Shown here: positions 48,663-54,548 of the stretch, in pieces
How the letters are laid out: every line of letters begins with the position of its first letter
Numbering within the stretch: position 1 is the first letter of the stretch
IMG/VR virus record: IMGVR_UViG_3300006752_000033
Coordinates: 1-54,917 of that record
Strand: one strand, 5' to 3'
DNA: 54,917 nucleotides
Source of the DNA: a virus
Program-made: the position numbers and the translations under genes
The notes under the pieces: model-generated
The model's database searches: none
What the model was told of the DNA's origin: nothing
What the model saw: only the letters and a program-made list of their open reading frames with translations

Positions 48663-48680
48663 GTTTAGTTATTATTGGAC

Positions 48681-48688
48681 TATTTATA
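48681..48688 (-). promoter_or_regulatory. T4-type late promoter for gp48, divergent
   Basis: The minus strand reads TATAAATA exactly, 34 bases before the gp48-type ATG. Its upstream edge directly abuts the gp4 start codon on the other strand, so the two genes share a 42-base intergenic region. Confidence 0.65.
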
Positions 48689-49129
48689 ATGCCATATAGA
48701 AAAGATTTGCACCAAGGACGATTTATTCCTAAAAACCCCAAAAAATATCGTGGGGATTCGAGCAAAATCATCTATAGGTCTGGATATGAATTAAAATTTA
48801 TGAATTGGTGTGATATGAACAGAGATGTAACCTTCTGGTCCTCCGAATCGGTTGTGATTCCATACAGGTCTCCAATGGACAAAAAAATTCACAGATACTT
48901 TGTTGACTTCTACGCAAACATCAAAGGCAAATCATATCTGATAGAAATAAAACCATCTAGGTTTACAAAACCACCAGAACCAAGAAAGAAGACTAAAAGG
49001 TATTTAGAAGAGGTAGCACAGTGGGGTGTCAACGAGGCCAAATGGAAGTCCGCAAAGGAGTTCTGCGCTGATAGGGGATGGAAGTTTATGATTGTCACAG
49101 AAAAAGAATTGGGTATAAAGTATAATTAG
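48689..49129 (+). CDS. 4: gp4 head completion protein (PD-(D/E)XK nuclease-like)
   Basis: This 146-residue protein (T4 gp4 is 150) starts MPYRKDLHQGRFIPKNPKKY and has RGDSSKIIYRSGYELKFMNW with the first Glu, 'VTFWSSESVVIPYRSPMDKKIHRYFVDFYA' with the catalytic Asp, and YLIEIKPSRFTKPP with the ExK pair. T4 gp4 acts on the filled head before tail joining. The ATG at 48689 matches the family start; a longer upstream extension exists in frame but is not conserved. It is divergent from gp48/gp53, as T4 gene 4 is from gene 53. No ribosome site is visible. Confidence 0.93.
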   Translation: MPYRKDLHQGRFIPKNPKKYRGDSSKIIYRSGYELKFMNWCDMNRDVTFWSSESVVIPYRSPMDKKIHRYFVDFYANIKGKSYLIEIKPSRFTKPPEPRKKTKRYLEEVAQWGVNEAKWKSAKEFCADRGWKFMIVTEKELGIKYN

Positions 49130-50268: not shown

Positions 50269-50970
50269 ATGGCGTTACCTATTACAGAATATCCTTTGGT
50301 AGACATTTATGTGTATTCAAAGAAAGAAACTCATCAGTTCAGACCGTTTCTAGTAAAAGAAGAAAAACTTTTAGTTATGGCTTCAGAGACCAACGAAATT
50401 CTAGACATGGTGAAGGCAACACAACAGGTTATCACAAACTGTTCGTTTGGTAAAATCGATGGAGATGAATTACCCATCTTCGACATGCAAAGTATATTCA
50501 TGCAGTTGAGAAAATTATCGATTGGTTCTGAAATTGAGGCACGATTTGCCTGTGGGTTTTGCGAACAAAAACAAGACGTTATTATTGATCTAAACAACTT
50601 TACAATAACTGAAAATGAGAATCATACCAAAACGTTGAAAATATCGGATACTATGACTGTAGAGATGCGATACCCAGTGGCATCGGAGTTGAAAGAGATC
50701 GCTGGTACAGAGGAAAATGCAGAAATTTATTCGGTGGCTGCTGCGTGTTTGGATAAGATTTATATTGAAGATTCTATATACGAGGCGAATGAAGTATCAG
50801 AAGAAGATAAAATGGAATTCATAGAAAACATGACAACAGATCAGTTTGAAAAAATAAGAGATTTCTATGAAACAATGCCTACATTGGAAAACAAAATTGA
50901 ATTTAACTGTAAGGCATGTGGGAAGGAAAATTATATCTTCATGAATGGTTATCTCGATTTTTTCGCATGA
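50269..50970 (+). CDS. 26: gp26-type baseplate hub assembly / tail assembly chaperone
   Basis: This 233-residue protein (T4 gp26 is 208) begins PITEYPLVDIYVYSKKETHQF, has YRPFLVKEEKLL-type and 'MVKATQQVITNCSFGKID' segments, and carries two Cys pairs (C95/C98 and C214/C217) that would form a zinc ribbon. It belongs to the T4 baseplate protein family of gp26. GGAG precedes the ATG. The last four sense codons read GAT TTT TTC GCA before TGA, giving a T-TTT-TTC slippery heptamer at 50958-50964. A -1 shift there would extend the protein into the next ORF. Confidence 0.9.
   Translation: MALPITEYPLVDIYVYSKKETHQFRPFLVKEEKLLVMASETNEILDMVKATQQVITNCSFGKIDGDELPIFDMQSIFMQLRKLSIGSEIEARFACGFCEQKQDVIIDLNNFTITENENHTKTLKISDTMTVEMRYPVASELKEIAGTEENAEIYSVAAACLDKIYIEDSIYEANEVSEEDKMEFIENMTTDQFEKIRDFYETMPTLENKIEFNCKACGKENYIFMNGYLDFFA
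50958..50964 (+). promoter_or_regulatory. Candidate -1 programmed frameshift site
   Basis: The heptamer T-TTT-TTC is in the correct phase (X-XXY-YYZ) relative to the gp26 codons, four bases before its TGA stop. After a -1 slip the next codons are CGC ATG AAC, entering the small ORF at its own start codon. The product would be gp26 residues 1-232, Arg, then 58 residues (291 total). Confidence 0.6.
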
Positions 50971-51143
50971 ACCTCTTCCATGAATCTCTGCAAAACTATT
51001 TTAAAACAAACTTTTTGTTGATGCAAGAACATAAATATAGTTTAACAGAGGTTGAGAATATGATGCCGTGGGAGAGGTCAGTTTACATCGGAATGTTGGT
51101 TACTCACCTCAAAAAGAAATCAGAAAAAAACAACTACACATAG
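50967..51143 (+). CDS. Small tail-assembly-chaperone-like partner of gp26
   Basis: This 58-residue ORF starts at an ATG overlapping the gp26 stop (ATGA), in the -1 frame. It is helical and contains EVENMMPWERSVYIGMLVTHL; the pattern 'M/I-P-W/x-E/x-R...Y...L...L' is typical of the C-terminal part (T or E' type) of tail assembly chaperones. It sits immediately before the tape-measure candidate, the place such chaperones always occupy. It may be made by coupled re-initiation, as a -1 fusion to gp26, or both. In T4 terms it could relate to gp51 or gp28, but I see no clear match. Confidence 0.7.
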   Translation: MNLFHESLQNYFKTNFLLMQEHKYSLTEVENMMPWERSVYIGMLVTHLKKKSEKNNYT

Positions 51144-51150
51144 GCTAAAA

Positions 51151-53046
51151 ATGGGACTCGCAAAAACTGGTAATCAAATATTAAACGCCATCGGCGACGG
51201 CGCACTGAGCGGTGCGAGAGGCCTCTTTGGCAAAGCTAAAGGTGCTGTCGTGAGTGGCGGTAGAAAAGTTAAAGGATTACTAGGCGGCGGCGTGAAATAC
51301 GGCGCGCCAGGACTTGGTGTACTATCGCTCAACAAAAATCTCAACGATATTGAAGATAGCATAGAAGGAATGGGAGCCGGTGGTGGTTCGGGCGTAGGAT
51401 TCTTTAGTGGCGCCGGTGGTGCCGGCATGGTAAATTCGGCCGCTGCAACGAGCGCCCTATCAGATGCAGACAGTTCCGATCCTGTAGTAAGACAACTACA
51501 AGATATTGAAAGAGTTTTAGTATCGATTAAAGGTGATACTGCAACAATTGGTTCTATGATGAACAGACCAGTAGCAAACAACGGCAATGCAGCTAGAGGA
51601 ATGTTTGCTGGGTCTGGAGATAAACCAGTTGGTGATCTAAGATCATTTTTGGGGCTCGGTGCCGGCGTGGGCGCCCTGTTTCTTGGTGGTAAAGGCGATA
51701 CGACCGACAGAAATGCAGACGGGATACCAGACAGTGAACAAGATAAAGCACAAACCTCAATTGATAAAGAAGCGCAAGACCTGCTGATGAAACCAAAGAC
51801 CACCAAGACCGCCGGGGTCTTGGCCGCGAAAGCAGGCGCTAAAATAGCCTCGAGCAAAACGGGTCAAGCAATCGGGAAAGCGGGAGTGAGAGTCGCAACA
51901 TCGGCAGTAGAATCAACTAGAGAAGCTGTCGCCAAAGCTACTGGCAGAGGTGCCACTACCGCAGCAGCAACGATTGACTCTGGACCGAAATCTAACGTTA
52001 CCCCCATCAGTAAAGACATCGATATGAATGGCAAACCTGTCGCGCAACCAGCTGCTGCTGGAGCTGCGGGTGGGCCCAAAACAATCACTCCACCCGTTGA
52101 TCTTGCTACAGCTGCAAACGATGTCCCTGATGCCCCTGGCAGTAATAAAGGTAAAATAGCTAAGGCGATCACAAAACGCCTCAGCACTGTAGCTGCAAAA
52201 GCAGTACCCCTCTTAGGAGCTCTTGTCAGTGGAGGATTCGCAGTAGAGAAACTTTTCGCTCGAGACTTCCGAGGCGCGATGATGGAGGCGGGTTCTATTT
52301 TCTTACCCAGTGTTTCGGGAACAGCGCTTGACATAGCTACTGCAGCTAGAGATGTGTACATGGATGTCCATGACGGTAGAGACCCGACCACCTCAGAAGA
52401 AATGAATAGTGAGGGATATGAACAAAGATGGGATGAAGTTCAGCAGGCCGTAGGTGAGTATGCAGCAAATCTTTTCAAGAGTGCAGATGAAATAAAGACG
52501 GCGGACTCGGTAGAAGCAAGACCCGTCAAACAAATGGGAAGATCGGGTGAATTGAAGAATGCAGATTTGGAAGAAAGACAAGCAAATTGGGATGAGAAGT
52601 TTGGTGCCACGCACAATGCAGATGGAACCCCCACAGCGGAAACCCAAGCCCAATTTGAGTCAACTCAGCCCACACCCATAAATCAAGAACGAGGGTTCTT
52701 CGGTAGACTGTTTGAAGGTCGAGTAGGAAATGAAATTGATGAGGTCAAAGAGATGGGAACTACGGTCATGGATGCAGTAGACCAAACCCTTCCGATGTTG
52801 GGCATGAGTGCAGATAAAGTTGAGATCAATACAGATTCAGCAGTAGCCAAAGATAAAGAGAAAACAGCAAGTCAGCTTGCTGCTGGAGTTGGCCAAAGTG
52901 TCGCAGAAGGACAAAAAATCCAGTCTACCGGAGTAACCCCGATCCAACCAAATATCAACGTTAGTGTCGCGAACGCCAAAACAACTTTCCCGCAAGGCAG
53001 TGCGGAACTTATGATGATTATGAATAATGGTTCTTATTATACCTAA
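51151..53046 (+). CDS. Candidate tail tape-measure protein (gp29 position)
   Basis: This 631-residue protein (T4 gp29 tape measure is 590) lies 7 bases after the chaperone-like ORF. It is Ala/Gly/Lys-rich with hydrophobic glycine stretches (VGALFLGG; KAVPLLGALVSGGFAVEKLF) and long helical parts. A calcium-loop-like element, TDRNADGIPDSEQD, lies near residue 190. No transglycosylase or peptidase motif is visible. Position and length favour tape measure; the composition with many glycines also fits a membrane-active hub protein. It converges with the radical SAM gene, the two stop codons overlapping. Confidence 0.6.
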   Translation: MGLAKTGNQILNAIGDGALSGARGLFGKAKGAVVSGGRKVKGLLGGGVKYGAPGLGVLSLNKNLNDIEDSIEGMGAGGGSGVGFFSGAGGAGMVNSAAATSALSDADSSDPVVRQLQDIERVLVSIKGDTATIGSMMNRPVANNGNAARGMFAGSGDKPVGDLRSFLGLGAGVGALFLGGKGDTTDRNADGIPDSEQDKAQTSIDKEAQDLLMKPKTTKTAGVLAAKAGAKIASSKTGQAIGKAGVRVATSAVESTREAVAKATGRGATTAAATIDSGPKSNVTPISKDIDMNGKPVAQPAAAGAAGGPKTITPPVDLATAANDVPDAPGSNKGKIAKAITKRLSTVAAKAVPLLGALVSGGFAVEKLFARDFRGAMMEAGSIFLPSVSGTALDIATAARDVYMDVHDGRDPTTSEEMNSEGYEQRWDEVQQAVGEYAANLFKSADEIKTADSVEARPVKQMGRSGELKNADLEERQANWDEKFGATHNADGTPTAETQAQFESTQPTPINQERGFFGRLFEGRVGNEIDEVKEMGTTVMDAVDQTLPMLGMSADKVEINTDSAVAKDKEKTASQLAAGVGQSVAEGQKIQSTGVTPIQPNINVSVANAKTTFPQGSAELMMIMNNGSYYT

Positions 53047-54548
53047 GATAATATTTTTTTAGAGATATATCCATCAACGTGATCCAACACATGTTCGGTT
53101 CTTCTTTCCATGTGAATCTTTGTAGCAAAGTCTGACCACTCTACGCTGGGGTCGATAAAGAATTTATCGTACAGAAATGGATCAATTAAATTCTTCGCCT
53201 GATACTGACTGAATTCCTCTGCACAGAAACGCATAACTTCTTGTAGGTTTGTGTGTTCGTTTCTCCAAAACAAATAGTATCCCGTAGACGCAACCCAATC
53301 ATACAATTCTTTATAAAACGGGTTTCTACTCTTTGACCAATCAATATCGTCAATCGGAATAATCTCTCGTCGATACCCGTAGTCAAACCACTTTTTATCA
53401 AACTCGGAGTTGTGATTCAGTGTTTCTGAATTGTTTTCCAAGTCCTTTATCATCAGAACATTCATGTGATAACTATTCTGATTCCAGTATTCAGACAACC
53501 ATCTGCCAGTGTCTCGCAACGTATCTATCGTCTCATGAGGCAGTCCAGCAATCAGAGATATGTGACCCTTGTAAAATCCTGCACTGCGGAAGTACTCATC
53601 AACCTCTAACAACCCCTCCTTGATTCTGCCACTGTCCATACCTTTACCGATAGACTTGGCAGACTCATGGTTCATACTCTCCACACCATAGAAGTGTGAG
53701 GTGATTCCCATCTTGATTAGATTATCCCAATCCCGTTTTCTGGTGGTCATCAAGTCTGCACGAATGTATGCAGTCATCTTCGGTGTGAATGGCAGTTTCT
53801 CTATGACACTGGCAAACTTCTCAATCTTCTCACTGGAATCGTTGAAGGTTTCATCAAGTACAATGTAGTGTTCTGTACCCCACTTGTCATAGTTCTCTAG
53901 CATCTCATCGTACACACTTTGAGCCGTGCGAGAGTAATCACCCTTGACACCTAGAACGGGGAAACTGCAAAACTTACATTTGAATTTGCACCCACGGGCA
54001 AACTCCAACAACAAAATTTCTCTGGGGTTGATAAAGTCGGTGTCCTTGTATGACACCCTGAGATCGTCCTTGGGAAAAGATTTGTAGTTGACGTAACAGT
54101 TTATTGTCTTGTTTGCATGAATCGGTTCGGGTCCACCCTTGAAGTGATCGATCAGTGCAAGGATGGCATTCTCACCCCACCCGTACACATACCAATCCAT
54201 TTCCAAGTGTTTCATAGAATTGTTTTGACTGCCGGCGACAAGGGGAATGTGGGGATACGTCTCTTTCAACCATTGTATAAAAGAAAGTATCGTAGGCGAG
54301 TCGAGATAGAACGTAGAACCAAAACCAAAGAACAAAAAGTCATCCGTGACTCTGGGTTCAACATATTGCTTGAGTTGATCTAGCGACCACCTGTGGATAT
54401 AGTCAACGACTTCAACATCGTATTCGTGTTGTCTGAGAAACGTGGCAATTTTATGTCCGCCAGAAGATCGTCTGATACTGACCTTCGAGCTATCAAACTC
54501 TATACCCAAATCTTCAAGTTGGCCACCAAAAATAATACTATGCATCAT
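53043..54548 (-). CDS. Radical SAM protein with B12-binding-type N-terminal domain
   Basis: Residues 1-140 are Rossmann-like with SSGGHKIATFLRQHEYDVEVVDY, FLFFGFGSTFYLD and 'YVYGWGENAILAL', the plan of cobalamin-binding domains that precede radical SAM barrels (the DxHxxG motif itself is not seen). The barrel begins with RGCKFKCKFCSF (C187, C191, C194: CxxxCxxC for the 4Fe-4S cluster), then 'YIVLDETFN', MTAYIRADL and 'FYGVESMNHESAKSIGKGM'. Such enzymes do radical methylations or rearrangements; the substrate is unknown. It lies between the hub/tape genes and gp32 and is convergent with the former. The start ATG is behind GGTGA. Confidence 0.85.
   Translation of the reverse strand: MMHSIIFGGQLEDLGIEFDSSKVSIRRSSGGHKIATFLRQHEYDVEVVDYIHRWSLDQLKQYVEPRVTDDFLFFGFGSTFYLDSPTILSFIQWLKETYPHIPLVAGSQNNSMKHLEMDWYVYGWGENAILALIDHFKGGPEPIHANKTINCYVNYKSFPKDDLRVSYKDTDFINPREILLLEFARGCKFKCKFCSFPVLGVKGDYSRTAQSVYDEMLENYDKWGTEHYIVLDETFNDSSEKIEKFASVIEKLPFTPKMTAYIRADLMTTRKRDWDNLIKMGITSHFYGVESMNHESAKSIGKGMDSGRIKEGLLEVDEYFRSAGFYKGHISLIAGLPHETIDTLRDTGRWLSEYWNQNSYHMNVLMIKDLENNSETLNHNSEFDKKWFDYGYRREIIPIDDIDWSKSRNPFYKELYDWVASTGYYLFWRNEHTNLQEVMRFCAEEFSQYQAKNLIDPFLYDKFFIDPSVEWSDFATKIHMERRTEHVLDHVDGYISKKILS

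Follow-up and report, generated by a model that had tools for sequence, protein, structure and literature searches.

A conserved slippery heptamer at the end of gp26 very probably directs programmed -1 frameshifting, through which this uncultivated marine T4-like phage would produce its tail-assembly chaperone in two sizes, short (233 aa) and long (291 aa). The locus lies in a linear virus record from IMG/VR (IMGVR_UViG_3300006752_000033), the 54,917 nucleotides of which are referred to here as the window. Four features read from sequence carry this interpretation: the phase of the heptamer, its conservation, the continuity of the -1 frame, and homology to T4 gp26 and gp51 (Table 1).

Table 1. 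Features of the gp26 slip locus in the window.
Feature	Coordinates	Strand	Profiles and remarks
gp26, short form, putative 'G'-type tail assembly chaperone, 233 aa	50269..50970	+	PF12322, phrog_150
Slippery heptamer T_TTT_TTC in -1 phase	50958..50964	+	Six T's invariant in 244 distinct junctions
gp26 stop codon TGA, 0 frame	50968..50970	+	
-1 frame continuation carrying the gp51-type 'T' domain, 59 residues past the shift	50964..51143	+	phrog_634, phrog_150 C-terminus
58-residue ORF, its ATG sharing bases with the gp26 stop, possibly translated by re-initiation	50967..51143	+	
Gene that follows, 631 aa, candidate tape measure on positional grounds only	51151..53046	+	

Organization of the slip site and reading frames

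In the frame that begins at 50269 the last codons of gp26 are CTC GAT TTT TTC GCA TGA, such that the heptamer is read T_TTT_TTC, the phase required for tandem -1 slippage. The initial annotation had placed TTTTTTC at 50958-50964 in exactly this phase, as we find, and had put four bases between it and the gp26 stop, where the actual spacer is three (stop at 50968-50970). No stop interrupts the -1 frame between 50913 and 51140, and the ATG at 50967 overlaps the gp26 terminator as ATGA and opens the 58 residues previously described; no purine-rich ribosome site is present directly upstream of this ATG. The proposed 291-residue fusion is also recovered, with 232 gp26 residues followed by 59 from the -1 frame. 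An ORF in the -1 frame that overlaps the end of gp26 is found in the window, in the isolates, and in the IMG/VR surveys described below.

From these features we infer that slippage occurs, at some rate and with some ratio of short to long product, and that the products act as chaperones. Ribosomes translating gp26 would encounter T_TTT_TTC, and most would carry on and terminate at the TGA, yielding the 233-aa short form. A fraction would move back a base as both Phe-tRNAs re-pair with TTT TTT, and would then read CGC ATG AAC and onwards to produce the 291-aa long form ending in the gp51-type domain. By analogy with lambda gpG and gpGT, the tape measure protein would be covered by many copies of the short form and few of the long form, and the tail domain of the latter would recruit tail tube subunits.

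For the window alone, the arrangement is weak evidence and only mildly unlikely to arise by chance, because TTTTTTC is not enriched (21 occurrences against 21.1 expected) and in-phase X_XXY_YYZ heptamers are common, with about 90 in 17,259 codons.

Identity of gp26 and the -1 domain

Profile matches place the first protein in the T4 gp26 family, as it passes the curated cut-off of PF12322 (E 7.6e-54, 183 bits, cut-off 24.5) and matches phrog_150 (E 1.2e-55). The -1 domain matches positions 58-112 of the 121 in phrog_634 (T4 gp51, 'baseplate hub assembly catalyst'; E 3.4e-22) and also the C-terminus of phrog_150 (positions 238-280 of 282), and this extension of gp26 is the only gp51-type domain in the window. 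The downstream ORF had been described as tail-chaperone-like, and this can be refined to a gp51-type domain, which already goes by the name gp51 in cyanophage records.

The AlphaFold2 model of gp26 is well predicted (pLDDT 89.3). Among its viral fold matches are gp26 proteins and, from Acinetobacter phage ZZ1, a T4-type gp51, along with further phage proteins, of which many are unnamed. Neither a fold search with the model (best E 0.18) nor a sequence search finds a match among solved structures in the PDB, and we therefore do not claim homology to lambda gpG; what we propose is a G/GT-like mode of action for gp26 and its membership of the T4-like gp26/gp51 family.

Conservation of the heptamer among relatives

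Four sets of relatives were compared: isolates, IMG/VR loci found via the downstream domain, and two IMG/VR surveys seeded with gp26 only. Among the isolates, T_TTT_TTN is present in phase and 0-6 nt upstream of the stop in S-ShM2, P-HM2, C48C1, S-B05, S-SM1, S-SSM6b, phiM7, Milchi, LPCS28, IG49, RHph_I9, ValKK3, Aeromonas 65.2, Aswh_1, ACP17 and Mendera. A gp51-type domain follows in the -1 frame in all 16 except Mendera, for which the junction alone was read. The alignment of eight very diverse downstream domains is too divergent for scanning. The downstream-domain search patterns did not cover the heptamer, which is present in all 79 of the loci so found with a readable gp26 end, and the gp26-seeded surveys, blind to both the heptamer and the downstream domain, contain the heptamer together with a -1 gp51 domain in 78/78 and 76/76 loci. 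The check proposed in the initial annotation, that marine T4-like relatives should keep the heptamer and its phase while the flanking codons vary, is thus passed in every marine T4-like relative covered, including all three IMG/VR sets.

When distinct junctions are pooled, the in-phase core of six T's is kept in 244 of 244, which makes the evidence strong, unlike that from the single sequence. These junctions are not independent events because of their shared ancestry, and thinning the first 93 to under 70% nucleotide identity leaves 63. At the wobble position providing the first T the entropy is zero, compared to 1.37-1.90 bits over the 20 wobble positions before it. The codon that contributes this first T varies (AGT, GAT, AAT, TCT, CAT, GCT, ACT, GGT) and always ends in T, and the residue before Phe-Phe may accordingly be Ser, Asp, Asn, His, Ala, Thr or Gly. 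The seventh base of the heptamer is C in 156 junctions, T in 83, A in four and G in one, including Phe-to-Leu changes, which is within the variation that a slippery heptamer allows. Five junctions retain the heptamer at the -1 entry point although their stop is 24-27 nt further downstream, and GC-rich phages also retain it, as in ACP17 (59% GC; CTC GAC GAT TTT TTC). Taken together, the comparisons point to a slippery heptamer that is held in phase and conserved above coding constraint.

Three other explanations were weighed against these junctions. The first is termination at the TGA followed by restart at the overlapping ATG, giving a free 58-aa gp51-type peptide. The ATGA overlap in the window would suit such a restart, and public annotations imply it in that cyanophage records list gp51 as a gene of its own; however, an in-frame ATG lies within 6 nt of the stop in only 41 of the 244 junctions, 73 of 164 in an earlier set have no ATG, GTG or TTG in the first ten -1 codons, and the records annotate truncated versions (P-HM2, C48C1) or none. 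Re-initiation also gives no account of the invariance of the heptamer, and we regard it as quite improbable.

The second, to which we give even less credence, is that RNA polymerase adds or drops bases on the T run such that some mRNAs encode the fusion in frame. Runs of eight or nine T's, which would favor this, occur in 31 of the 244 junctions, but 161, including the window, have six T's only, mostly with C at position 7. Six-T runs are poor substrates for transcriptional slippage, a process that moreover has no need of an exact codon phase, yet the phase is invariant.

The third holds that gp26 has to end in [D/S/N]-Phe-Phe, that the run persists for this reason alone, and that the -1 frame is a coincidence. 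It draws on the Gly-Leu-x-x-Phe-Phe ending also seen in T4 gp26, but is contradicted by the sequence comparison and has a negligible probability: synonymous positions are frozen (naive log10 P of about -18.7 and -15.1 for the two wobbles in 93 sequences, kinship ignored), the T's persist where Leu takes the place of Phe, in-phase T_TTT_TTN occurs only six times in 18,523 gp26 body codons, and the -1 domain is always present.

Relatives without the canonical heptamer

A branch of Ackermannviridae and vibriophages keeps the -1 gp51-type domain without a canonical heptamer in six isolates and 18 IMG/VR records, most of these 24 sequences being near-copies. In these sequences, the vibriophages among which are D503 and SUMAE, NTT TTC precedes the stop, with gp26 ending in ATT TTC AT[T/C] TAA (GAA ATT TTC ATT TAA in Kuttervirus), or in CTT TTC AAG TAA or CTT TTC AGA TAA. 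Relatives lacking any slippery site had been named in advance as evidence against frameshifting; none is found among the marine T4-like phages examined, all of which keep the heptamer, whereas the 24 sequences of the Ackermannviridae/vibriophage branch lack a canonical one. One tentative explanation, which we consider possible but somewhat doubtful, is that this branch makes the gp26-gp51 fusion at a non-canonical NTT_TTC before the stop rather than at X_XXY_YYZ. If so, NTT_TTC would be an unusual slip signal inside an otherwise invariant poly-T family.

Stenotrophomonas phage IME-SM1, considered as a counter-example, lacks one of the slip-site T's of Mendera, the one near relative that was read (GAT TTT TTC GGC TGA). 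The missing base is likely a sequencing error or a mutation, because the IME-SM1 slip region is one base shorter than that of 14 near-relative records. We note that this base, probably a sequence error, distorts the gp26 annotation of IME-SM1.

Signals flanking the slip site

Folding just after the heptamer is stronger across relatives (mean z -1.01) than elsewhere in gp26 (about -0.4), and some lineages (P-HM2, L049, L060 and L067) have stable stem-loops about 5-6 nt downstream of it, which are candidate frameshift stimulators. The window has no stable stem-loop downstream of the heptamer (z -0.6), and RNAalifold finds no consensus stem there in one aligned group of 17 sequences; a stimulatory RNA is not claimed for the window. 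An upstream Shine-Dalgarno-like GG at -11/-10 was also discarded, as its two bases belong to a Gly codon that is conserved and whose third base varies freely.

Two genes in T4 and RB49

Genes 26 and 51 of T4 and RB49 are separate and divergent. The T4- and RB49-type gp51 proteins match PF12322 or phrog_150 over nearly their whole length, with phrog_634 at the end; T4 gp51 spans positions 13-280 of the 282 in phrog_150, and a profile of the conceptual fusion aligns with RB49-type gp51 in one stretch across the junction (positions 20-289 of 294). By these alignments, T4/RB49-type gp51 is a gp26 paralogue that carries the gp51-type domain in frame, and in T4 and RB49 the short and the long form are seen to have a gene each, 26 and 51. 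From the gp26/gp51 comparisons made here, we take these to be the chaperone genes of the Vladimirov study discussed below. T4 gene 26 lacks both the downstream domain and the heptamer (TTC TTT GAG TTA CTA TAA), in keeping with the earlier remark that T4 is not known to frameshift in gp26. The assignment of gp26 as the G-type and of the fusion as the GT-type chaperone also gains support, as RB49/T4-type gp51 corresponds to the same fusion in frame. T4 gp26 is thus homologous to the short form and T4 gp51 collinear with the fusion, and T4 differs from the window in having separate divergent genes and no frameshift.

In the gp26 tree, the rooting of which is not resolved, T4-type gp51s and gp26s form two distinct groups, and the ancestral state can therefore only be inferred. 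The frameshift layout is also present within the Straboviridae, in ValKK3, Aeromonas 65.2 and LPCS28.

Known systems and database annotation

Tail assembly chaperones of T4-like phages were identified by Vladimirov, Gautam and Davidson (2022, Virology 566:9-15). As cited in the PRFect paper (PMC10885494), that work indicates that some T4-like phages have a separate long gene instead of frameshifting, and as cited in the paper on phage Adele (PMC12846349), that T4-like short-form genes are known to contain poly-T slippery sites. On these accounts, chaperone frameshifting in T4-like phages is already known and the window locus is a further case, with the same kind of proteins, from an uncultivated phage. 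The lambda gpG/gpGT system (Levin 1993; Xu 2004; reviewed in PMC5009743) likewise yields a short chaperone and a -1 fusion, encoded among the tail genes by a pair of overlapping frames, and differs in its slippery site, which is not T_TTT_TTC; gp26 is also larger and has paired CxxC motifs. The chaperone frameshift of Vandenendeviridae and Andersonviridae, as in Adele (PMC12846349), uses a conserved T-rich site, GTTTTT; it shares the T-rich slip site and an open -1 frame before the tape measure gene, and occurs in other phage families.

Cyanophage gp51 was described as reduced, without the first ~200 residues, by Sullivan et al. (2010; PMC3037559), with no mention of frameshifting, and the T4 hub factor gp51 was listed as of unknown function in the same year (PMC3004832). 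Most likely, the 'gp51' of marine T4-like phages is the frameshift tail of gp26, and the T4 hub factor gp51 would correspond to the long chaperone. Many of the records examined annotate the gp51-domain region wrongly or not at all. In public records gp51 is truncated (31 codons with the stop in P-HM2, 35 in C48C1) or the -1 domain is left blank. The gp26 loci also provide natural sequence data on a very large scale for a single slippery site.

Genomic neighborhood

Upstream of gp26 are head closure, DNA end protector and tail tube genes, and on the opposite strand are tube cap, baseplate wedge and hub/lysozyme genes. The 631-aa gene directly 3' of the slip locus has the position expected of a tape measure gene; it has no convincing Pfam or PHROG family and no BLASTP similarity to T4 gp29. 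Among the other genes of the region, we note that the head-closure (gp4-like) protein (48677-49129, forward strand) has a match (E 2e-19) to PF08722, a TnsA-like endonuclease domain. A gene at 53043-54548 on the reverse strand, which adjoins the tail genes, has a CxxxCxxC cluster (ARGCKFKCKFCSF) and resembles radical SAM enzymes.
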